NCBI GenBank assembly: GCA_945957605.1
Contig: CAMFLR010000011.1
Location: 62,001 to 126,000, forward strand
Length of the DNA: 64,000 bases
Reading direction: 5' to 3'
Origin: an uncultured Isosphaeraceae bacterium
GTDB lineage: Bacteria; Planctomycetota; Planctomycetia; Isosphaerales; Isosphaeraceae
The position numbers and the translations under genes were made by a program. The notes beneath the pieces were generated by a model. That model did not search any database. It saw only the letters and a list, made by a program, of their open reading frames with translations, and was not told where the DNA came from. Position 1 is the first letter of the stretch; each line of letters opens with the position of its first letter. Below are positions 12,178-55,990 of the stretch, piece after piece.

Positions 12178-12711
12178 TTAAGCGTTCGCCCGAGCCGTTT
12201 GGCTCTCGGCAAGCTGGTTTCGAAGCGTCTTCAGGCCGACGTGAATCAAGTAGCCGACATTGCTGACCGAATGGCCGCTGATTCGGCTAATTTCCTGATA
12301 TGAGAATCCGTTCTGAAATTTGAGCCGGATCACGTCGCGCTGGTTGGGGGGGAGCGCATCGAGCAGCCGGAGGGCGAGTGCTGCGGAGTCGCGAGTTTCG
12401 GCGATATCGGCGGGGCCGGGGTCGGCCGTTGGTCTTGTGTGTACTTGTTCTTCACTGAGTTGGGTCATACGGCTTTCCTTCCTCAGGACGTCGAGCGCCC
12501 GATTTCGGCAGACGGTGAACAGCCATTCGGCGAGGTGAGGCTGCACCGTCTCCGGCTCCTGGGCACATAGGCGCAGGTACGTCTCCTGAACGACGTCTCG
12601 CGCAAGGTCGGCATCGCCGAGCAAGCGCGAGGCGTACAGGGTTAACGGCCTCTCAAAACGGTCCACGGCCGCCCGGATCCAGGCGGAATCAAGAAAGTTG
12701 GGCTTGCCCAT
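12178..12711 (-). CDS. ECF-type RNA polymerase sigma factor
   Basis: A 177-residue sigma-70 family protein with only regions 2 and 4. Region 2 includes LLGDADLARDVVQETYLRL near residues 30-50, and region 4 includes LPPNQRDVIRLKFQNGFSYQ with a following helix-turn-helix (EISRISGHSVSNVGYLIHVG) near 125-165. It would direct RNA polymerase to alternative promoters. The gene directly downstream encodes a membrane protein with an anti-sigma-like head, so the pair is probably an envelope-sensing sigma/anti-sigma unit. Its regulon cannot be read from this window. Confidence 0.9.
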   Translation of the reverse strand: MGKPNFLDSAWIRAAVDRFERPLTLYASRLLGDADLARDVVQETYLRLCAQEPETVQPHLAEWLFTVCRNRALDVLRKESRMTQLSEEQVHTRPTADPGPADIAETRDSAALALRLLDALPPNQRDVIRLKFQNGFSYQEISRISGHSVSNVGYLIHVGLKTLRNQLAESQTARANA

Positions 12712-42038: not shown

Positions 42039-43586
42039 TCAGTTCATCATCGCCGGTTCGTCGATGAGCAAACCGTACTTTTTCATCTTCTTGTAGAGCG
42101 TGGTGCGGTTGATGTCGAGCACCCGGGCAGTTTCCTGGCGATTCCAGTTCAACGCCTGCAGAGCATGAATGATGATCTGCTTTTCGGGCTCTTCGAGTGC
42201 TTCCTTGAGCGGACGGAGGCCCATCGGCATGTTCGGCCGGGGGGCGTAGTTCGCGCCACGACCGGGGCGAGGCGGACCGAAGCCGAGCGACAGATTCGCC
42301 GAGGTGACCTGCGCTCCGTGGCTAAGTGCCACGCCTCGCTGGATTACGCTTTCGAGCTCGCGGACGTTGCCTGGCCAGTCGTGCCGGCAGAGCATGTCGA
42401 TCGCGTCGGGCGTGAAGCCGACGACCGACTTGGCGAATTCGGCGGCGAATCGGGATCGGAAGTTCTCGGCGAGTAGTTCGACATCGCCACCTCGGTCGCG
42501 AAGCGCCGGGAGACGGAGGCAAACCACGCCAACGCGATCGTAAAGGTCGCGACGGAACCGCCCCTGCTCGACCAGGTTCGACAGGCTTTCGCCCGACGCC
42601 ATGATGATTCGCACGTCAACTCGCGTCGGTTCAACCGAGCCGGGGGCGTCGTACTCGCCGTCTTGCAGGAGACGGAGAAGCTGGCGCTGGAGGCCGGGGG
42701 AAAGCGAAGCGACGTCGTCGAGGAAAAGCGTGCCGCCGTGGGCGCGGGCGACCTTGCCGGGACGGTCGAGCATGCCGTTCGCGTCGGCCCGGCCGAAGCT
42801 CTGGCCGAACAGTTCGCGTTCGAGCTGAGATTCATCGAGACCGCCGCAGACGACTTCGGCGAACGGCTTGTCGGCTCGCGGGCTATTGGCGTGAATCGTA
42901 CGAGCCAGAAGCGACTTGCCGGTTCCCTCTTCGCCGACAATAACGACCGGGGTACGAGTTCCGGCGGCGGCCATCGCGAGTTCGACAACCTGACGTACTG
43001 CTTGCGAATCGCCAACGATGGGCGACTTCACGTTCCGCTGCTCCGACGACCGTGTCACAACGGTCTGGTGCGAGTGCGGCATAGTGTGGTGCACGGCCTC
43101 TTGGGCCGGGTGGACGTCGTGTGGCTGGGCGTGGCCATTCGACGCAGTGTGTTGATGAGTCTGATGCGTATGGCCAGTGGAGGGGTGGCTGACCGCAGCG
43201 GACAGATTGTGCCCAGCTTCGATGCTCTGTTCAAGAGCCTGCATCACCGCGGCACGCAACTCGTTGGCCGGGGTGGGGTAACGCAGGACCGTCGCACCCA
43301 TGCGGGCCGATTCGCGGGCCCGGTCACAGGCGACATTGTTGAACAGAAGCAGAACCGGAATTTTGGAATGCTTGCGACGCACGTACGACAGTAGTTCGAG
43401 GGCGTCGGGATCGGCGGGATCGACCGACGCAATCACCAGGTGGACGCCTCCCTTTTCAAGGCGGCGCACCGCAGCTCGATCATTCGGCACGTCCTCGATT
43501 ACCACACCCAATGACTGAAGCATTGAGCTGAGTAACGACTGAGTCGAGCCGTCCGCGTTGACGATGAGGATCTGTGCTTGAGTCAT
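42039..43586 (-). CDS. NtrC-type regulator with degenerate receiver and altered AAA+ loop
   Basis: A 515-residue regulator: receiver-like domain (1-120), a His-rich linker (about 124-180), an AAA+ ATPase domain (about 190-420) and a Fis-type DNA-binding helix-turn-helix (about 470-510, ETARVLDINRTTLYKKM). In the receiver the phosphate-accepting Asp is replaced by Ser54, and the acidic pocket is reduced, so phosphorylation is unlikely. In the ATPase, Walker A GEEGTGKS and Walker B LFLDDV are present but the GAFTGA loop that contacts sigma-54 reads GRADANG after ELFGQSF. It probably binds DNA and oligomerises, but activation of sigma-54 is doubtful. Confidence 0.88.
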   Translation of the reverse strand: MTQAQILIVNADGSTQSLLSSMLQSLGVVIEDVPNDRAAVRRLEKGGVHLVIASVDPADPDALELLSYVRRKHSKIPVLLLFNNVACDRARESARMGATVLRYPTPANELRAAVMQALEQSIEAGHNLSAAVSHPSTGHTHQTHQHTASNGHAQPHDVHPAQEAVHHTMPHSHQTVVTRSSEQRNVKSPIVGDSQAVRQVVELAMAAAGTRTPVVIVGEEGTGKSLLARTIHANSPRADKPFAEVVCGGLDESQLERELFGQSFGRADANGMLDRPGKVARAHGGTLFLDDVASLSPGLQRQLLRLLQDGEYDAPGSVEPTRVDVRIIMASGESLSNLVEQGRFRRDLYDRVGVVCLRLPALRDRGGDVELLAENFRSRFAAEFAKSVVGFTPDAIDMLCRHDWPGNVRELESVIQRGVALSHGAQVTSANLSLGFGPPRPGRGANYAPRPNMPMGLRPLKEALEEPEKQIIIHALQALNWNRQETARVLDINRTTLYKKMKKYGLLIDEPAMMN

Positions 43587-43880
43587 TGGATCACACTCTC
43601 AGGAAAGCAACCCGCGTGATTGTTCAGTCGCCGGTTCATCGTCCCTGAGCCAAACAACACAATCGTGTGCTGTTCTGTGCGAGCCTTGAAAGCGAGCATC
43701 GCTTTCGCAGACCCGTCGGCCGCCCCGCGTTCTTTGCGTTGGTCTGGCCGATTTGCAGAAAAATCATCAAGGCCGTCGAATGGGATATACATCGCGGTTG
43801 CATTCTCGTCAAAAGCGTTCTCATTAAACCAAAAACCTTGACGAGTCGCAATTTGTGACCCCCACGAATTCGTCAGGCCG

Positions 43881-44765
43881 TCAGGCCCGTGGGTGTGCGC
43901 TTCGATACGCATCGACCAGACGCTCCTTCGTGACATGTGTATAAATTTGTGTGGTGGTTAAACTACGATGCCCAAGTAATTCTTGAACGGATCGTAAGTC
44001 GGCTCCGCCATCTAACATGTGCGTCGCGAAGCTGTGCCGGAGGGTATGCGGGCTCGAACTTGGGTCGAGCCCCTGTCGAACCAGATGCTCTTCAAGCAAC
44101 CGGCCCACACTCCGCGTCGTGATGCGGGTTCCCCTGTGATTGAGGAACATCGCTTTTTCTCCCATTTTGGATGGACGTCGCTCGACGCGCCAGTGTTCGA
44201 TCCAATGCATTGCCGCCGGACCAACGGGACACAAACGTTCCCGTCGTCCTTTCCCACGAATCAGAATCAGCCCCTCGTCGATTTGAATGTCGCCGAGATC
44301 GATGCCGACCAGTTCGCTCACGCGAAGGCCGCCGCCGTACATCGTCTCGAACATCGCGCGGTCGCGAATACCGAGTGAGGTGTCGGTGGGGATCGAGTCG
44401 AGGAGGGCAATCATGTCGTCGATGGAGAGCAATTTGGGCAAGCGTTTCGGCTGCTTCGGATTTCGTAGGCCCCCGGCAACGTCTCCCGAGACGATCCCTT
44501 GCCGGCGCTGGTAGCGGAAGTAGGAACGAAGGCTGGCGAGCCGTCGGGCAATCGTGCTCGCAGAGTAGCCTTGCGAGCCGAGCCAAACTGTATACGTACG
44601 CAATCGCTTGGCGTCTACTTGCGTGGGGTCAGTTCCTTCACCGAACCGTTCATTAAGATAGGTTTCGAACTGCGTCATGTCGTCTTCGTACGAGCGCAAC
44701 GTGTGCGGCGAGGCCTGCCGCTCGTCACGAAGATGACCCAAAAACGCAGAAATCGAAGCGTGCAT
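43881..44765 (-). CDS. Tyrosine recombinase, XerC/XerD family
   Basis: A 294-residue site-specific recombinase with an N-terminal SAM-like core-binding domain (1-90) and a catalytic domain. Active-site residues are complete: Arg in GGGLRVSEL near 148, HTLRHSF (His and Arg) near 237-243, His in LGHRSLTTTQ near 263 and the nucleophilic Tyr in IYTHV near 273. Length and layout match XerC/XerD, which resolve chromosome dimers at dif; the two cannot be separated here. I chose the ATG at 44765, preceded by AAGGATAG; an upstream in-frame ATG at 44840 would add 25 atypical residues. Confidence 0.9.
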   Translation of the reverse strand: MHASISAFLGHLRDERQASPHTLRSYEDDMTQFETYLNERFGEGTDPTQVDAKRLRTYTVWLGSQGYSASTIARRLASLRSYFRYQRRQGIVSGDVAGGLRNPKQPKRLPKLLSIDDMIALLDSIPTDTSLGIRDRAMFETMYGGGLRVSELVGIDLGDIQIDEGLILIRGKGRRERLCPVGPAAMHWIEHWRVERRPSKMGEKAMFLNHRGTRITTRSVGRLLEEHLVRQGLDPSSSPHTLRHSFATHMLDGGADLRSVQELLGHRSLTTTQIYTHVTKERLVDAYRSAHPRA

Positions 44766-45323
44766 AGTTAATCTATCCTTGATGGGCTGCGTCGCAACCG
44801 CTTGATCGGCCTTCAAACACTTTCGCGTATCAACTTTCATCGGCCGATCGTCGCTCGCCTGTCGAGCGCAGCCCGATCATCGGCTCTCCGCTTCGCAGCG
44901 GTTGGAACCAGGTCTGCTCAAGAATCAGAGGCGTCAACGCCCTCTCTCGTGCGCCAGCGTCGGACCGGAAGCGTCAAACTCGGGTGGGTGCATCTCAACA
45001 AGCCCAGCCCGTTCAGGACGAGGTCCAGGATTAACGTGTTGCCCATCTCGGCACGGCTCGCGAAGAAGAATTCCGGACCTCGTAAAACGCCTTTTAGGGC
45101 GTGGTCAAGAACTTTTTTCGCGATCGGTGGTCGCGTTCACTTTTATCTACGTGCGGCCGGTTGGCTTGGGACACACATGCTATGAAAAAACCCCGATTGC
45201 ATCATCGCAATCATCACTCCAGTCCTTTGAGCGATCTCGGAGTTACTACTTAGTACCCGGATTCATCAAGTCAAGTTTCGAAAAATCGCGTTTTTCTTAT
45301 TAGAATTTATTGAACCGTGTTCA
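44766..45323. other. 558-base intergenic region
   Basis: It separates the recombinase start from the end of the DUF1501 gene and therefore holds the recombinase promoter. A short inverted repeat GATTGC/GCAATC is at 45195-45212, and the segment 45255-45320 is unusually AT-rich for this region and includes GAAAAA/TTTTTC arms (a possible terminator for the DUF1501 gene). No gene with acceptable start signals or protein-like composition is seen. Confidence 0.5.
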
Positions 45324-47664: not shown

Positions 47665-47732
47665 TTGTATCCAGGCCGGCCGGTGCCCGCATTACCTGGT
47701 ATCAAACGCCTGAAATCTGAGGGTCTCGCGTC
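47665..47732 (+). promoter_or_regulatory. Conserved upstream block of membrane sigma factor gene 1
   Basis: GTATCC (47667-47672) and GGTATCAAACGCCT (47698-47711) are repeated at the same 33-base distance before the paralogous gene at 50023, and AATCTGAGGG.CTCGCGTC just before the ATG is also shared. GAGGG (47719-47723) is the likely Shine-Dalgarno. The block is a good candidate for an autoregulated promoter; element identity is inference. Confidence 0.55.
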
Positions 47733-49685
47733 ATGGCGAGCGAGCAATTCGCGGTGGCGAATCGACAACTCGGCCGGTTACTTCAGTCAGGAAGTGTCGC
47801 CGGGTTGAACGAGGGGCAACTGCTCGACCGGTTCCTCACGAAACGCGATGACGCGGCGTTTGAAGCCATCGTTGCGCGGCACGGACCGATGGTTCAGGGC
47901 GTGTGCCGGGGAATTCTCCGCGACCCAAACGACGTAGATGACGCCTTTCAAGCGACGTTTCTCGTCCTGGTGCGCAAGGCGGCCGACCTCAGGCATCAAG
48001 AGGTCATCGCCAACTGGCTTTACGGCGTGGCGTTTCGAGTCGCGCGCCGGGCTCGCGAACAGGCGATGAAGCGATCTCACGCCGATGCGACGGAGATCGA
48101 TCCCGCCGATTCGCGCACAGTCCCGCTCGACGATTTCGACCTTCGCCCCCTCATCCACGAAGAGTTGAACCGCCTTCCTGAAACCTATCGCGCAGCCCTC
48201 GTGCTGTGCTATCTCGAAGGCCAAACACACGAAGCCGCTGCGACGCAACTTGGCTGGCCGATCGGCACGGTTAAAGGTCGATTGGCGCGAGCGAAAGGCC
48301 TGCTCCGCGCGAGACTAACACGCAGAGGGATTGCGGTTTCGACCGCAGGACTTGCAGTCGCGCTCGCGAAGGAAACGCGAGCCGCCGTTCCCGATGCGCT
48401 AGTGCAAACGACAACCACCTCGGCCCTGAGTGCCGCGACGGCAGGCCTGGCTGCGTCAACAATATCACCTCACATCGCCTCGCTTGCTGGAGGAGTTTTA
48501 CAGACCATGGCACCGATGAAGTTAAAATATATTGCAATGCTTGCGGTTGCTGGCTTGCTCTCCGCCAGCGGGGTTTCGGCCTATCAGGCCAAACCGCAGC
48601 CGGTAGCCCCGACGAGTTCCAAGTCCGCCTCAAACACAGCACCCGTTGAGCAAAAGCCGCGGGAGCTACTTAGGGCAGAAGAAAAGCTGAGACTTATCGA
48701 TCAGGCCTTCGAGACTTTTGAGGAAGAAAAAGCAACAGGACAATTATTTGGCTCCTGGCAACAGCACTATGATTCCTGGACGGAACGACGGAAGAAGGCT
48801 CTCCTTGACCTGGAAAAGATCCATCAACAACTCGAAGGATTGGATTTCCAGTTGAACGAGGCGCGGCGTCAGCTCGAATCCGCGCGTCGGACCGAGGAAA
48901 GACTTAAACGTTCCAGTCTAAAGGTCAACATCAGCGAGAGTGATCACTTCAACACTAAATTTGCCATACTCGAGGCCGAGGAGACGCTGGAACGAGCGAT
49001 TGAAGCGCGCAAAACGCAACGATTGAGCGAAGCTTCGGGTACACAGAAAACTTCAGCAGCTAAAGAGGATCGGGCGACGAGCGAGAAGACGGCTGTCGCG
49101 CTCGTTGCTGCTGAAGATGCACTCAAACGCTCGATCGAGTTCAGGAAGGAGCAGTCTTCCGCGGAGTCGCAAGCACGCACTGAAGCGATCCTCAAAGGTG
49201 CGAGTGGCGAGAACCCACCGCCAGCGAGCAAGGCTGCCGGCGCGTCGGCCGCGCGATATCCCCAAGATATCGAGCGCAACAAACGGATCGAGGAAGTGCT
49301 CGAACAATCGCTGACCATGGCTTTCCCCAATCCGACGCCGCTTGAAGATATACTCAAGTATACCAAGCAAAATACAATGAGCGAAGAACTCAATTTCCCC
49401 TCCGGTATTCCCATTTATGTCAATCCATCGGGGTTGTCCAAAAGCGAGAAGACGACCAAGTCGGAAGTGAGCCTAGAGATTGAAGGCTTACCGCTCCGAA
49501 CAACTTTGAGGCTGATTCTCGAACAACTTGACCTGGACTACGAGGTTCACGACGGAGTACTCGAAATCAACGCTGCCTCGGAGTTTGCGAACCGCAAGAA
49601 AAAGAAAGAGTATGAGGAAGCGCAAAAGCCCGGCAAGATAGAAGGCAGCGCCGGCGCAAAAGGCGGCATGGGCGGATTTCAATGA
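47733..49685 (+). CDS. Membrane-spanning ECF sigma factor with extracytoplasmic STN-like domain, copy 1
   Basis: A 650-residue fusion. Residues 20-200 are an ECF sigma factor: region 2 has [20 protein letters not shown], and region 4 has [20 protein letters not shown] followed by the recognition helix [21 protein letters not shown] connector (200-260), one hydrophobic segment ([19 protein letters not shown], about 262-283) and a Glu/Lys/Arg-rich helical region (305-500) lead to an STN-like domain (about 515-615: [38 protein letters not shown]) and a Gly/Met tail. With the sigma part inside, the last domain would lie outside. GGAGGAG at 48489 precedes an in-frame ATG at 48507, so a shorter secreted product is possible. 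Ligand unknown. Confidence 0.85.
48489..48518 (+). promoter_or_regulatory. Possible internal ribosome binding site and start, sigma gene 1
   Basis: GGAGGAG (48489-48495) lies 11 bases before an in-frame ATG (48507) and 20 before another (48516) that opens [19 protein letters not shown], which reads like a signal peptide. The same arrangement recurs at 50779-50808 in the paralogue. Initiation here would give a separately exported sensor domain of about 390 residues. Confidence 0.45.
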
Positions 49686-50022
49686 ATCGTTGCGAATTGA
49701 CGACTCCGAAGTTCGAGGCCCTCTCGCAGTTCATTTGCGACGAGGGTCTCGGCTGTTTTCAGACATAGCGAAGTCTTCGAGTCTTTCGGATCGTAAGAAC
49801 CCATTTCTGGTCCAAGCATTTCCACTTCCGGCAGTCTCGTCGCGACGCCATATCAGTAACTTGTTCCCCTGCTTGGCATTTCATCCCTTATACTCAGAAC
49901 TCGACATCGTTCTCATACGGCGCGATGCTGCTCGAAAAAATCTTTTCGAGAAATCTGTATCCGGACCAGACTCAGGATGCAGTACCCGGTATCAAACGCC
50001 TCCAATCTGAGGGCCTCGCGTC
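49686..50022 (+). promoter_or_regulatory. Intergenic region and conserved upstream block of membrane sigma factor gene 2
   Basis: This 337-base gap between the paralogues holds GTATCC (49957-49962) and GGTATCAAACGCCT (49988-50001) at the same spacing as before copy 1, with AATCTGAGGG just before the ATG (SD GAGGG). A perfect inverted repeat, CTCGAAAA-AATC-TTTTCGAG (49931-49950), lies just upstream and is absent from copy 1. Remaining sequence shows nothing recognisable; the ORF in it lacks protein-like features. Confidence 0.55.
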
Positions 50023-51915
50023 ATGGCGAGCGAGCAATTCGCGGTGGTGGGTCGCCAACTCGGCCGGTTACTCCAATCTGGAACCGTGGCTGGGTTGAGC
50101 GAAGGCCAACTGCTCGACCGATTCGTCACTCGACGGGATGACGCGGCGTTTGAAGCCATCGTTGCGCGGCACGGACCGATGGTTCAGGGCGTGTGCCGGG
50201 GAATTCTCCGCGACCCAAACGACGTTGATGACGCCTTTCAGGCCACGTTTCTGATCCTCGTCCGTAAGGCGGCCGAGCTCAAGCAGCAGGAGTTGCTCGC
50301 CAACTGGCTCTACGGTGTGGCCTATCGCGTGGCACGTAGGGCACGCGGTCAGGCGATGAAGCGATCTCACGCCGATGCCGTGGCGATCGATCCCGCCGAT
50401 CCCGACGCCGCCTCGCTCGATGATCTCGATATTCGTCCCTTGATTCACGAAGAGCTGAGCCGATTGCCCGAGAGCTACCGCGCAGCGGTTGTGCTCTGCT
50501 ATCTCGAAGGTCAGACACACGAAGCCGCCGCCACGCAACTCGGCTGGCCGATCGGCACAGTCAAGGGACGTCTTGCACGAGCGAAGGATATGCTTCGCGC
50601 CCGCCTCACACGCAAGGGACTCGCGGTATCAACAGCGGGCCTGGCCCTTGCACTCGCAAAAGAAACGCGGGCCGCTGTTCCCGATGCACTCGTGCAAACG
50701 ACAACAAACACCGCTTTGACCGCCGCTTCGGCCGGTCTGGCAGCGTCGACCATATCACCCCACATCGCCTCGCTTGCGGGAGGAGTTTTACAAACCATGG
50801 CACCGATGAAGTTGAAATATGTCGCGATGCTCGCAGTCGCGGGCTTGTTGTCGGCTAGCGGGGTTTCGGCTTATCAATTCGCGCCTAACCAGGGCAAAGT
50901 TGCCAAGCCTAAAGCAAACACACCAACGACCACAACGGCTGTGGACGGCAAGAAGTCACCCGAGCGACTACGAGTCGAGGAGAAGCTCAAGCTCATCGAC
51001 AGCATTCTTGATGCAGGCAAACGAGAAATGCTGGTCATGCCTACCGGCCCCGCCGAAGGGGTCACCCCCTTCCAGCACACCTGGGATACGCGCCGGATGG
51101 CTGTTCTCGGTGAACTAAATCGTATTCGCCAGCAAGAAGAGGGAGACGACTTCGAGGTCAACGAGGCACGCCGAAAATTAGAAAAGGCGCGTCAAGACGA
51201 AGCGAATGGCAAGATCGGTCCAAACCAGGTTGAGTCTAATGCGATTGGAAAAATGGCTTTGCACTTCGCCGTGATGGAAGCGGAAGACGAACTTGCACGG
51301 GCAGAGAAACAACGAGCACAGAGGCGACAATCTGCGGAAGCAACGACAAACCGAGCGCAAGCTCGCAGCAACTCAGGAGAAAATCAAAAAACTCCCTCGG
51401 CACCTGTTCATCCTGCTGATATCGATCGAAACAAAGAAATCGAGCAATCCCTCGAAAAAATCGTCAAAATGCAGTTCCCGAACGAAACGCCACTTGAAGA
51501 CGTGCTCAAATACATCAAAGAAGAAGCCAAAGACGCGAAGGGTCGCCCCATTCCCATCTACCTCAATCCCATGGGTTTGGCCACTGTCGAAAAAACGATC
51601 ACCGCACCTGTCACTCTCGACATCGACGGCCTGCCGCTTCGAACGACGCTCCGACTTATTCTCGACCAACTCGACATGGCGTACGAAATTCACGACGGCC
51701 TGCTCGAGATTAACTCTGTCACTGATTTCGCCGACCGGAAACAAGAAGAACAGCTCCGGGCCATGAAGCAACGAGGAGAAGTCAGCGGTGGCGGAATGGG
51801 TGGTGGCATGGGCGGCTTCGGTGGCATGGGCGGCGGCATGGGTGGAGTGGGTAGAGGCAGCGGCATGATGGGCGGTGCTGGTAAGGTCCCCGGCGGCGGG
51901 GGCGGAATTCAGTAA
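50023..51915 (+). CDS. Membrane-spanning ECF sigma factor with extracytoplasmic STN-like domain, copy 2
   Basis: A 630-residue paralogue of the preceding gene with the same order: ECF sigma regions 2 and 4 ([40 protein letters not shown]), connector, single membrane segment ([19 protein letters not shown]), a diverged charged helical region, and the STN-like domain ([48 protein letters not shown]). It ends in a long Gly/Met-rich tail (GGGMGGGMGGFGG). The sigma half is nearly identical to copy 1, including an 89-base stretch of perfect DNA identity (50137-50225 with 47847-47935), while the region after the membrane segment differs. The same GGAGGAG/ATG site is at 50779-50799. Predicted to be an envelope-sensing sigma factor (inference). 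Confidence 0.85.
   Translation: MASEQFAVVGRQLGRLLQSGTVAGLSEGQLLDRFVTRRDDAAFEAIVARHGPMVQGVCRGILRDPNDVDDAFQATFLILVRKAAELKQQELLANWLYGVAYRVARRARGQAMKRSHADAVAIDPADPDAASLDDLDIRPLIHEELSRLPESYRAAVVLCYLEGQTHEAAATQLGWPIGTVKGRLARAKDMLRARLTRKGLAVSTAGLALALAKETRAAVPDALVQTTTNTALTAASAGLAASTISPHIASLAGGVLQTMAPMKLKYVAMLAVAGLLSASGVSAYQFAPNQGKVAKPKANTPTTTTAVDGKKSPERLRVEEKLKLIDSILDAGKREMLVMPTGPAEGVTPFQHTWDTRRMAVLGELNRIRQQEEGDDFEVNEARRKLEKARQDEANGKIGPNQVESNAIGKMALHFAVMEAEDELARAEKQRAQRRQSAEATTNRAQARSNSGENQKTPSAPVHPADIDRNKEIEQSLEKIVKMQFPNETPLEDVLKYIKEEAKDAKGRPIPIYLNPMGLATVEKTITAPVTLDIDGLPLRTTLRLILDQLDMAYEIHDGLLEINSVTDFADRKQEEQLRAMKQRGEVSGGGMGGGMGGFGGMGGGMGGVGRGSGMMGGAGKVPGGGGGIQ
50779..50808 (+). promoter_or_regulatory. 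Possible internal ribosome binding site and start, sigma gene 2
   Basis: GGAGGAG (50779-50785) sits 11 bases before an in-frame ATG (50797), codon 259 of the gene, the same codon as in copy 1. A second ATG at 50806 opens the signal-like [19 protein letters not shown]. Because the paralogues are recent duplicates, conservation alone does not prove use. Confidence 0.42.
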
Positions 51916-52009
51916 GCAGCCCATCGTCGTGGATCGCACAGGCAATAGAAATTCGACGCGTCAATTCGACTTACGATCGACAATTCCCAAATCATCCAGG
52001 ACGGCACAC

Positions 52010-52912
52010 ATGAACTCGATTTTGCGGAAGTTCGTTGGCACAGGGCTGGGCGTCGTACTCTTCGGCACCGCGTGCGCGGCATTTCAAATGGGCGGAATGG
52101 GCGGCGTGTCCCCCGCAACTCCCGCCATTAATCCGGCGATTGCAAAAAGTGCTGCGGAACGCGAGACAATCGCTCGCTCGGTGATCGCAATCATCGAGAA
52201 GGCAGAAAAAGAGGGGAGCAAATCCAAGCTCTCGGACGAAAGCCTGACCTGGCACAAACGGCTGCTCGAAGCTCAGTTCGACGGCGGCGTCTCGAAAGGT
52301 GATGTTGGCAAGAGCTACATCAAGATGCTGAAAGATGCCGAGGCGAAGGTTAAAGAGCGATTTGATCGCGGCCAGGTTTCGCAGGTCGATTTACTTGAGG
52401 CACAGTTCCGCACACTTGAAGGCGAGCGCTGGGTCGCATCCAGGACGACGGTTCAGCCCGGTCCCCAGGGGCCCGGAGGTGGATTCGGTGGTGGCGGATT
52501 TGACGGTGGCGCCGATGAAGTCCCCCCGCGACGCGCCCCTAAAGAACATGCGAACGATCTCGAACGCAACGAGGCGATCAAGAAGCGTCTCGAAGAACCG
52601 ATCACGATGCAGTTCGCCAATGAGACTCCGCTCGACGATGTGATCAAGTATCTCAAGGCGAACTTCACGGATAAAGGCAAGAAGGATGTACCGATTTTCA
52701 TCAACCCGCGCGGACTCGAGGAAGCTGAGAAGTCGATGTCTTCAGTCATCATTATCGACATCCAGGATGTTCCCGTGCGGACGACGCTACGGCTCATCCT
52801 CAACCAGCTCGACCTCGACTACCGCGTGCGCGAGGGGATGATTTACATCAGCTCGAAGCAGCAGTTTGAAGAGGAAGAAGAGCCCGCCCAGGTTGGCGCA
52901 CGCTTTCAGTAA
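52010..52912 (+). CDS. Secreted STN-like domain protein related to the sigma sensor domain
   Basis: A 300-residue exported protein with a signal peptide (MNSILRKFVGTGLGVVLFGTACA), a Gly/Met patch (FQMGGMGGV), a helical region with TETI- and EAQ-rich segments (about 40-130), a Gly-rich linker and an STN-like domain (about 180-280: [57 protein letters not shown]) matching the C-terminal domains of both upstream sigma fusions. It has no sigma part. It may partner with or compete against those domains (inference). The ATG at 52010 begins the signal; the longer frame adds 45 unrelated residues. Confidence 0.82.
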   Translation: MNSILRKFVGTGLGVVLFGTACAAFQMGGMGGVSPATPAINPAIAKSAAERETIARSVIAIIEKAEKEGSKSKLSDESLTWHKRLLEAQFDGGVSKGDVGKSYIKMLKDAEAKVKERFDRGQVSQVDLLEAQFRTLEGERWVASRTTVQPGPQGPGGGFGGGGFDGGADEVPPRRAPKEHANDLERNEAIKKRLEEPITMQFANETPLDDVIKYLKANFTDKGKKDVPIFINPRGLEEAEKSMSSVIIIDIQDVPVRTTLRLILNQLDLDYRVREGMIYISSKQQFEEEEEPAQVGARFQ

Positions 52913-52933: not shown

Positions 52934-54625
52934 TTACGCCATCGTCTGAAACGCGTCGAATCCACCACCGGCTTCGATGCGTTTCAGCGGCAGTTCGACC
53001 GTGAAAGTCGAACCTTTTCCCGGCTCGGAACTAACGACGATCTTGCCGCCATGCTCGCGAATGATTTTTCGCGAAACGGGAAGACCAAGCCCAGTGCCTC
53101 GCGAGCCCTTGGTCGAGGCGAACACCTCGAAAATCGAGTCGACCTTGTCGGGTGGAATACCGCCGCCGTTGTCGGCAACTTCGACATTCAAAGTTGACGA
53201 TTCGACATCGTGCGAAGTCGACACCACGACGCGGCCGCCGTCCACCGGCTCGGCCGCGTCGATTGCGTTGGTGATGATGTTCATCACCGCGCGGTTGATT
53301 CCTTCGGAGTCGATGAGAATGTCGGGCAAATCGCTCGCGGGCCGCCAATCGAGCACAACATTCAGCTCGCCCGCGCGGGCTTGCATCAGCTCGATGACGT
53401 CGTTCACCGTCTCGTTGAGGTCGGTCGGCATCAAGGCCGGCTCGCGATCTTTCGAGAACGAGAGCATGTCCATCACGAGGTTATAGATTCGCGTTTGATT
53501 CTTCTCGACGATCGTCCATCCACGGCGAATGACCTGATCATCCTTATCATTCAACCCCATGTCGATCAAATAGCCGCCGCCGCGCATTCCTTGCAAGATA
53601 TTCTTGATGTGGTGCGACAACGTCGCAATCGTTTGCCCGACCGCGGCGAGCCGCTCGGCCTGAAGCTTCGCCGCATAAAGCTCGCTGTTTTCGATCGCCA
53701 GACCAGCCTGGTGCCCGAGCGCAACCATCAGCTTGAGATGGTCCGACGAAAACCTGGGCTTCATCTTGCCGGTCGGTTCATAGTCGAGCGTGGCTCGCAC
53801 GTCGACATACAGCACGCCAAGCGTTCCATGCCGCCCCTGCACCGGAACGCACATCGCCTCGCGAATGCCGTAATCGACAATCGACTCGGCCTTGCCAAAG
53901 CGGCCGTCGGCTGGAGCGTCGGAACTGATCACGCCTTGACCGTCGCGCAAGACATGGTCGGCGATCGATCGCGAGATCGACATACGCTCGTCAGGATCGG
54001 CCTCACCGCGCCACCGCACGGCCTTTGGCACAAGCTCGCCCGATTCATCTTTCAAGAGGATGGCGCCACGATCGGCACCAATCGACTCGAACACCATTTC
54101 GAGGATTTGCGGCAAAAGTGCGTCGATCTCGACGACGTGACTGATCGCCTGCGTCGCGCGATACATCACCGCGAGATTTGCCAGTCGTTCCTTGAGCCAC
54201 TCCCCCGCCGAACCGGGAGCGAGCAGCACGTTCGCGCCGTCGCTCGCGGGCACGCTTTTGAGAATCGCGGAACGATCGTCCGGGCTGGCAAGCGCGAGCA
54301 GGTCGACGCGCGATGTTAGCTCGCGTGCTGCATCGCTGACGTTGTCGTCGAACAAAATGACCGTCTGGCCGAGGCGGATCTGATCGCCCGAGCGCAGGGG
54401 CGTATCTTCAACGGCCTTGCCATTCAGGTAGGTGCCGTTGGCCGACTTGAGGTCGTTGATCCGATAGAGGCCGGCATCCTTGCGTAATTCTGCGTGTTTG
54501 CGGGAGATTTCGCTATCGTGGAGGCGTATAGGATTTGAGGCGTCACGTCCGATCCCGACGATTCGAGATGTCAACTCGAACCGCTTGCCCTGATCGGCCC
54601 CTTGAATCACGAACAACGAGGCCAC
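52934..54625 (-). CDS. FHA-GAF sensor histidine kinase
   Basis: A 563-residue histidine kinase without membrane spans. Order: FHA phosphothreonine-binding domain (about 1-85; VGIGRDASNPIRLHDSEISR, RKHAEL), GAF domain (about 145-310), dimerisation domain with phospho-accepting His in LSHHIKN near 337, and HATPase (N box NIITNAIDA, G1 VADNGGGIP, G2 GTGLGLPVS). It should be cytoplasmic and respond to Ser/Thr phosphorylation or a GAF ligand. No response regulator is adjacent. I chose GTG at 54625, 6 bases after GGGAG, since this starts the FHA domain; the longer frame begins upstream of it. It ends 21 bases from the convergent STN gene. Confidence 0.9.
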   Translation of the reverse strand: MASLFVIQGADQGKRFELTSRIVGIGRDASNPIRLHDSEISRKHAELRKDAGLYRINDLKSANGTYLNGKAVEDTPLRSGDQIRLGQTVILFDDNVSDAARELTSRVDLLALASPDDRSAILKSVPASDGANVLLAPGSAGEWLKERLANLAVMYRATQAISHVVEIDALLPQILEMVFESIGADRGAILLKDESGELVPKAVRWRGEADPDERMSISRSIADHVLRDGQGVISSDAPADGRFGKAESIVDYGIREAMCVPVQGRHGTLGVLYVDVRATLDYEPTGKMKPRFSSDHLKLMVALGHQAGLAIENSELYAAKLQAERLAAVGQTIATLSHHIKNILQGMRGGGYLIDMGLNDKDDQVIRRGWTIVEKNQTRIYNLVMDMLSFSKDREPALMPTDLNETVNDVIELMQARAGELNVVLDWRPASDLPDILIDSEGINRAVMNIITNAIDAAEPVDGGRVVVSTSHDVESSTLNVEVADNGGGIPPDKVDSIFEVFASTKGSRGTGLGLPVSRKIIREHGGKIVVSSEPGKGSTFTVELPLKRIEAGGGFDAFQTMA

Positions 54626-54781
54626 GGCACGCTCCCGAAATCGCCCGCTCGCGCGGAACCAAGCCCCAACGCGGGCGGAGTTGACCACACGCGTTCAGGC
54701 TAATCCAACGCACCACGCCGGTCAACCCGGCGAGACGCGTTGGAGCGTCGCCATGTTCACATTTATGGTGTTCGATTTCGC

Positions 54782-55990
54782 TCAGAAGGGAGTCGCGCGT
54801 TTCGTCTCGGTGGTCGAGCCTTCAGCCGCATTTTTCGCCCCCTTGGGCTGCGTTGTGCGGCCGCCGGAACCAATCGGCGCGATCAGCGGCTTTTCGACTT
54901 CCGCCGGCTCACCGACGTGATCGGCCGAGGGGGGAACTCCCTCGATATCGCGAGCGGCGCCTTCGTTGAAACGAATGAATGTGCCAGGTCGAAGTGGAAC
55001 GCTAGAAGAGGTGATCAGCACGTCACTCGAGCGAAATGGCCCAGAAACCTGCGTCCGCTCGGGACCAATCGTGCCGAGCACCCGAATGGGAATATCATTC
55101 ACGCGTTCGGCGCGAATCACCTGGACGATCGGCTTGCCGTCGTCCGCCTTCTTCATCGCCGAATTCGGCACGCCAGCGATGGGCGAGGTGGGCAAGAACG
55201 GACTTTGTGCCCGCTGGCCGGGTTCGAGAGCACCATCGGCATTGGGGACCACAAGCCACACTGCTGCAAATGGCGCCGCAAGCTCGCGAAGCGCGGCCTG
55301 ACTTTCGTTCAGCGGCAAGACCGCTTGCGCCTTGCCAGTGGCCGGTTTCCCTTCGATTGTGAAGCTAACATTGTTGCCCGACGTGGCAGAGCTGCGATCC
55401 ACCGGGAGGAAAACGCGGACGCTCGACACGTCGTCGATCGTCAGAATCGTCGATCCCTTTGCGAGGTATTGGCCGCCGTTCACGCGTATTTCGGTCACTC
55501 GTCCGTCGAAAGGAGCGCGGAGAATGTGTGAGTCGACTTCGATTTGCGCGAGTTCGGCCTGAGCCCGCGCCGCGTCGAGCCGTGCTTCTGTGACGGCGAG
55601 AATCGGAGTGCCGTTTCCGCTGCCCAGAGTCTTGGCCTGATCGTACTCCGCCTGACGTTCCTTCACAGCGGATGTGGCGATTCGAAGGCGGGCCATCGCC
55701 GCGCGAGGATCAAGCCGGGCGATTTCTTGCCCTTCGCGCACAGTCGCGCCAATGTTGACGGAAACGATCTGAAGCGCACCATCTTCAGGCGCCATGACGG
55801 CGACGCGACGGAGCGGCTCGACGATGATAGGAACGCGATAGCGATCGGGCGATGTCAGGACGAGCCGAGCACGTTCGACCTTCGCCGCGACCTGGTTTGG
55901 GTCGCGAACCGGCGCCGTTTGCGCAAGAACCGATGTGCCAAGGCTCGCGGTACCCGCCAGAATCACGACAAACGCATGCCGCACGTTCAT
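54782..55990 (-). CDS. HlyD/RND-type efflux periplasmic adaptor protein
   Basis: A 402-residue membrane-fusion-type protein with a signal peptide, lipoyl-like half motifs (MAPEDGALQIVSVNIGATVREG near 70-90 and the second half after the coiled coil, ILRAPFDGRVTEIRVNGG near 158-175), an alpha-helical hairpin between them and beta-barrel domains after. Such proteins link inner-membrane transporters to outer-membrane channels. No transporter gene is adjacent, so partners must be elsewhere. GGGAG precedes the ATG. The C-terminus is Pro/Thr-rich. Confidence 0.88.
   Translation of the reverse strand: MNVRHAFVVILAGTASLGTSVLAQTAPVRDPNQVAAKVERARLVLTSPDRYRVPIIVEPLRRVAVMAPEDGALQIVSVNIGATVREGQEIARLDPRAAMARLRIATSAVKERQAEYDQAKTLGSGNGTPILAVTEARLDAARAQAELAQIEVDSHILRAPFDGRVTEIRVNGGQYLAKGSTILTIDDVSSVRVFLPVDRSSATSGNNVSFTIEGKPATGKAQAVLPLNESQAALRELAAPFAAVWLVVPNADGALEPGQRAQSPFLPTSPIAGVPNSAMKKADDGKPIVQVIRAERVNDIPIRVLGTIGPERTQVSGPFRSSDVLITSSSVPLRPGTFIRFNEGAARDIEGVPPSADHVGEPAEVEKPLIAPIGSGGRTTQPKGAKNAAEGSTTETKRATPF

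Follow-up and report, generated by a model that had tools for sequence, protein, structure and literature searches.

An internal Shine-Dalgarno sequence and start codon, very probably under selection, in planctomycete ECF sigma factor genes with an STN-like outer domain

Several described systems resemble the genes analyzed here, and each resembles them only in part. IutY of Pseudomonas putida (ECF243) is a sigma/anti-sigma hybrid of cell-surface signalling, a family whose periplasmic domain has at its end an STN-like fold, which makes contact with a second STN domain (PMC8999054, PMC11637429). STN domains bind one another, and an overproduced transducer signalling domain inhibits the proteolysis of FoxR and IutY (PMC11637429). 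Like the fusions described below, IutY combines in a single polypeptide a sigma factor, one transmembrane (TM) segment and an outside domain. Its free STN domain, however, is encoded by the gene of a TonB-dependent transducer; for the fusions the source would be either the sigma gene or a small secreted gene. Moreover, in contrast to cell-surface signalling of the Fec/Iut type, no FecR domain was detected (no FecR/DUF4974 match among family members at E 0.1), and no TonB-dependent receptor or transducer gene is adjacent; the flanking genes scanned with Pfam belong to other families.

The ECF48/ECF52/ECF53 factors (SCO4117) of Actinobacteria share with the fusions a C-terminal extension containing one or more TM segments, and SCO4117 has an outside domain. 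These groups are described with a zinc-finger anti-sigma domain, but the region between the sigma part and the TM segment of the fusions has no Pfam match, so that the zinc-binding anti-sigma (ZAS) domain of ECF52/ECF48/ECF53 was not detected there. An internal start is not described in the reviews consulted. Planctomycete ECFs with long C-terminal extensions share both the phylum and the general layout, and those of Tuwongella were recovered in detergent fractions (PMC8567305). No account of an internal start or of an exported second product was found for them in a search that did not include the classification papers of 2012, 2020 and 2021. The internal start itself has its closest likeness in two-polypeptide phage endolysins, in which such a start provides a binding domain, and this domain associates with the full-length protein (PMC9430671, PMC4777826). 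In CTP1L and others, as proposed here, one gene with an in-frame internal start yields its C-terminal binding domain separately; these proteins are phage lytic enzymes, however, with no sigma factor and no export signal at the internal start.

The window, the whole stretch of 64,000 nucleotides that was analyzed, contains two tandem genes, 337 nt apart, and a third gene downstream. The initial annotation had read the first two as fusions of a sigma factor, a membrane segment, a helical region and an STN-like domain, and ORFs of 650 and 630 aa with this order of parts are indeed present. Gene 1 (47733..49685, + strand) encodes an ECF sigma part (47772..48332, +; residues 14-200), a linker, a hydrophobic segment (48531..48581, +; residues 267-283), a helical region (AF2 helices 310-489) and an STN/N0-like domain (49278..49574, +; residues 516-614). 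Gene 2 (50023..51915, +) has the same architecture, with its STN/N0-like domain at 51430..51717 (+; residues 470-565), and in both genes 58 residues of linker separate the sigma part from the hydrophobic segment. Gene 3 (52010..52912, +; 300 aa) encodes a predicted free exported sensor without a sigma factor, as had been noted: a signal-peptide-like N-terminus, helices (48-146), a Gly-rich linker and an STN-like domain (187-282). Its ORF as listed opens at GTG 51875, inside gene 2; ATG 52010 is the better start, because AGGA (51998-52001) lies 8 nt upstream of it and the signal-peptide-like N-terminus follows it.

Genes 1 and 2 are 85% identical in the sigma part and 58% in the STN part. Ka/Ks between them is 0.13 for the sigma part, 0.04 for the linker, 0.02 for the signal/TM segment and 0.17 for the STN part, with Ks near saturation; they are paralogues under purifying selection, which is strongest in the linker and the signal/TM segment. 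The sequence GGTATCAAACGCC precedes gene 1 (47698..47710, +) and gene 2 (49988..50000, +). These are its only 2 exact sites in the 8.8-Mb genome, and it was not seen upstream of the same-genus fusion; it is a candidate control element or a duplication remnant. An ECF-type promoter was rejected, since there is no convincing -35/-10 pair and the genome has just the two sites.

By sequence and by fold, genes 1 and 2 encode ECF sigma factors (group IV sigma-70) of predicted activity. Pfam Sigma70_r2 and r4_2 exceed their cut-offs in both genes, with regions sigma2 and sigma4 present; NCBIfam TIGR02937 (sigma70-ECF) also exceeds its cut-off, and the fold of the sigma part matches E. coli sigma-E (1or7). 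The C-terminal domain had been called STN-like, which stands for its predicted fold and fails in the profile search, where all three genes remain below the curated Pfam cut-off for STN (PF07660): gene 3 at E = 0.001 (19.3 vs 28.4 bits), gene 2 at E = 0.19, and gene 1 with no match. A sequence search of the PDB with the sensor alignment gave chance-level matches only. The predicted fold, two helices against two small sheets, matches secretin N0 domains (EscC, Z 8.6; PilQ, Z 8.1; values of Z around 8 are middling), the PupA signalling domain (2a02, among the Foldseek matches) and the C-terminal part of the Bacteroidetes anti-sigma factor BDI_1681 (4m0h; Z 8.5, rmsd 1.7 over 73 residues). This likeness is moderate (Foldseek E 0.013, Z about 8) and supports an STN/N0-like domain by modelled fold, weak by sequence. 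Unlike secretins, these genes encode no secretin pore. A Pfam RXLR match in gene 1 (E 0.005, under cut-off) was treated as spurious.

The neighbours of the three genes are a DUF1501 gene, a small unassigned ORF and an FHA-GAF-histidine kinase gene. No anti-sigma gene is adjacent, in agreement with the self-contained tethering proposed earlier. The kinase gene (52934-54688, -) is convergent with gene 3 and is followed by a HlyD-type adaptor gene (54782-55990). Elsewhere, the window holds, at 42039-44840 (-), an NtrC-type sigma-54 activator gene with a weak response-regulator receiver match and a tyrosine recombinase gene, and further away a short conventional ECF sigma gene (12181-12711, -), downstream of which one frame has a hydrophobic stretch that could belong to an anti-sigma gene. 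The whole genome (G000) has 116 Pkinase (PF00069) matches, a very rich set of Ser/Thr kinases.

The initial annotation overlooked an internal Shine-Dalgarno (SD) sequence and ATG in each fusion, a feature far more general than gene 3. In both genes GGAGGAG, 11 nt and ATG stand immediately before the hydrophobic segment. The SD of gene 1 lies at 48489..48495 (+), and the ATG, which is Met259, would open a second ORF of 392 aa (48507..49685, +) with a predicted exported product. In gene 2 the SD at 50779..50785 (+) precedes ATG 50797, and the proposed second ORF (50797..51915, +) has 372 aa. The junction between the sigma part and the hydrophobic segment bears the motif L-x-[EQGD]-G-V-L-x-A-M-x-x-x-K-L-K, which corresponds in DNA to AAGGAG, 11 nt, ATG. 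Among 23 fusions, M259 and L251 are the sole invariant residues between sigma and STN.

The junction was analyzed in 161 distinct planctomycete ECF genes; several of the relatives are represented by fragmented draft assemblies. A Met is found no more than 25 residues before the hydrophobic segment in 133, and 108 of these place it in a single alignment column. AGGAG or GGAGG occurs at -19 to -5 of the junction Met in 65/133, against 20.6 +- 3.5 expected from synonymous codons, and none of 1000 synonymous resamplings came up to the observed count; at other internal Mets the frequency is 51/1350 (3.8%). The Gly codon inside the SD element is GGA in 72/86 genes (84%), and only in 6-22% at 17 further positions of conserved Gly in these genes, a control which answers the kinship of these ECF genes only in part. 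Third codon positions are nearly unconstrained in these genes, except for -16 and -13, both inside AAGGAG. A duplex-energy SD score with a synonymous null discriminated poorly at the level of the single gene (few p < 0.05), since the Glu/Gln-Gly-Val residues already favour purine-rich codons; exact motifs and codon columns were used instead.

The SD nucleotides persist even where the amino-acid motif is lost. In 20 of 88 elements GGAG lies in one of the other two codon registers, several times at a spacing of 6-8 nt, as in AAAGGAG-CCTGCTC-ATG (locus L113) and AAGGAG-TTTTTCG-ATG (L116). The RNA around the junction ATG is predicted to be less structured than its synonymous versions, and remains so when the SD codons are kept constant (p = 2e-7); control Mets show a difference of the opposite sign. 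The 5-mer is present at 32% of the true signal-peptide starts in these loci and at 49% of the internal sites; for the 4-base core the figures are 77% and 72%. Against an internal start counts the modal spacing between SD and ATG, which is 11 nt at internal sites and 8 at true signal-peptide starts. About a quarter of the Met-bearing ECF genes are without the 4-base core. All considered, it is very probable that the internal SD and start codon are under selection.

The element is confined neither to this genome, where 13 of 20 long ECF genes have the 4-base core, nor to genes with an STN-like domain: the internal start occurs also among ECF genes with other C-terminal domains (91 genes without STN). 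Beyond the family, the core was found in 7/8 genes of one family and in 5/7 of another, and a third was mixed. These sequences support an internal start common to most of the ECF genes of this class examined. One ECF gene (L188) has an in-frame stop shortly past the signal segment and a degenerate SD (AAGGCG). It may be a broken gene, an assembly error or a natural split, and is uninformative on the splitting of sigma and sensor at the junction. A programmed frameshift was rejected; by eye there is no slippery heptamer, and the main frame is open throughout.

The hydrophobic segment which follows the internal ATG bears on how an outer domain could be set free. A single strong peak of moderate hydrophobicity (KD17 = 1.88/1.86) at residues 267-283 agrees with the membrane segment of the initial annotation, as an anchor, a signal peptide or both. 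The segment has the look of n-, h- and c-regions, with an end in ...GVSA/YQ in gene 1, and resembles a signal peptide as much as an anchor. The full-length protein could thus be a polyprotein, cut by signal peptidase at VSA/YQ, so that the sensor leaves while the sigma factor stays on a membrane stub, from which a site-2-type protease then frees it. Site-2 and signal peptidase families are common in bacteria, and both (M50 and S26) are encoded in this genome. The segment may, however, equally be an uncleaved anchor, and cleavage leaves the SD and the ATG unexplained. We regard the polyprotein as unlikely, though among the alternatives it fares best. It is compatible with two products per gene, and could replace regulated sensing.

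The element stands where a folded domain gives way to a hydrophobic segment, a position that would also suit a sequence that slows ribosomes for sigma folding or membrane targeting and gives no second product; a distance of about 11 nt from SD to codon could likewise agree with a pause. Ser/Thr kinases with a cytoplasmic domain and then a TM segment provide a comparison. In four of these genomes, 13 of 47 such kinases have a Met at the corresponding place, and none of the 13 has the 5-mer. The absence of the element from kinases of like topology speaks against a general signal for pausing or membrane insertion. A pause is also opposed by the conservation of the ATG along with the SD (several Met-less junctions are also without GGAG), by the low RNA structure at the ATG, which marks starts, and by free genes which start at the junction Met. 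It is accordingly an improbable explanation.

Such free genes were found in related genomes. In locus L062, a free STN gene beside a fusion keeps the linker end ...TTTCTTCAAGGAGTTGCACGCGCC-ATG (...CAAGGAGTTGCACGCGCC-ATG), with an in-frame stop upstream and no sigma factor. In L081, the homologous Met is precisely where the free gene starts; its first residues are nearly identical to those of the fusion, and the sequence upstream differs. The free gene of L041, a locus of the same genus, is led by CAGGAGTCTTCACGCC-ATG. Comparison of these sequences supports the use of the start corresponding to the junction Met by free genes.

The STN-like domain is present in 45/45 family genomes searched, with 1-10 copies each, some joined to sigma and others not. 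Most of the named relatives belong to the Isosphaeraceae (Singulisphaera, Aquisphaera, Paludisphaera), which makes this family the probable source of the window. The initial annotation had treated the three genes as one set, and the survey of gene order does not bear this out as a conserved unit. Tandem fusions occur at 5/21 ECF-STN fusion loci and a free STN gene within 3 kb also at 5/21 when the window is included; without the window, both counts are 4/20. These counts make the three-gene set one of several arrangements, and with a free STN gene at only 4/20 other fusion loci, gene 3 is not an obligate partner, by the initial annotation's own standard. In L041, free STN genes adjoin a fusion with two STN domains; fusions with two consecutive STN-like domains lie at L041:1550-3676 and L069:5458-7122. 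In this genome, the STN-like domain is also found in TPR proteins, in multi-pass membrane proteins and, as an insertion, in one large protein (L004, L005, L006, L007, L010). Loci L082 and L083 contain arrays of 3-4 tandem multi-pass membrane proteins, each with a terminal STN-like domain and no sigma factor.

The survey also bears on the reading first proposed, in which each fusion gene makes only the full-length tethered sigma factor, released or silenced from outside, and gene 3 is the sole free sensor. The intact sigma domain, the one hydrophobic segment and the adjoining free gene of this locus agree with it. The free gene is nevertheless absent nearby at most fusion loci, and selection on the SD codons and the ATG would have no explanation, so that a single product is very unlikely; as a whole, the initial interpretation is partly supported. 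That the element is merely a relic, left as the unused former start of a secreted gene which merged with the upstream sigma gene by loss of a stop codon, can hardly be sustained when many diverged paralogues, in several families, have kept the SD codons in spite of nearly unconstrained synonymous sites elsewhere.

The selected SD codons, the conserved ATG, the kinases without the element and the free genes starting at the same Met together make it probable that each fusion gene yields two proteins, a tethered sigma factor and a free exported outer sensor. The first start would give the full-length sigma factor, which the central hydrophobic segment would tether to the membrane, with the helical region and the STN-like domain outside. 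The second SD and ATG, where the linker ends, would give the signal segment, helices and STN-like domain as an exported free sensor, and gene 3 would be the same free sensor as a stand-alone gene. With 11 nt in place of the usual 8, the spacing may hold the second product at a set ratio.

The function of a second product is more tentative. The free sensor might pair with the tethered one through STN-STN contacts and shield the sigma factor from proteolysis. Loss of this contact, by a ligand, an envelope change or dilution of the free sensor, would then let intramembrane proteolysis free the sigma half. Such shielding is drawn by analogy from IutY and FoxR in cell-surface signalling and is a possibility on which we would not insist. 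It need not hold for all of these factors, because the internal start is also found in ECF genes with other C-terminal domains.

In planctomycetes, the ECF sigma factors that carry long extensions number in the dozens. Reviews count among the open questions both C-terminal extensions and ECFs that have no anti-sigma factor encoded close by (PMC8103513). Internal starts of this kind were not described in the full texts searched, a set that lacked key papers on planctomycete ECFs, which leaves the novelty uncertain. We lean, with some reserve, towards the view that most ECF sigma genes of this class, in several planctomycete families, are nested double genes. Each sigma factor that has an outside domain would then be accompanied by this domain as a separate exported protein, made from an internal start, and the ratio of tethered to free sensor, together with their pairing, would amount to a built-in control for which no separate anti-sigma gene is needed. 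The hypothesis of control offered here is that the sigma gene supplies its own free sensor. If the conserved internal start is true, annotation has overlooked a whole set of exported proteins.
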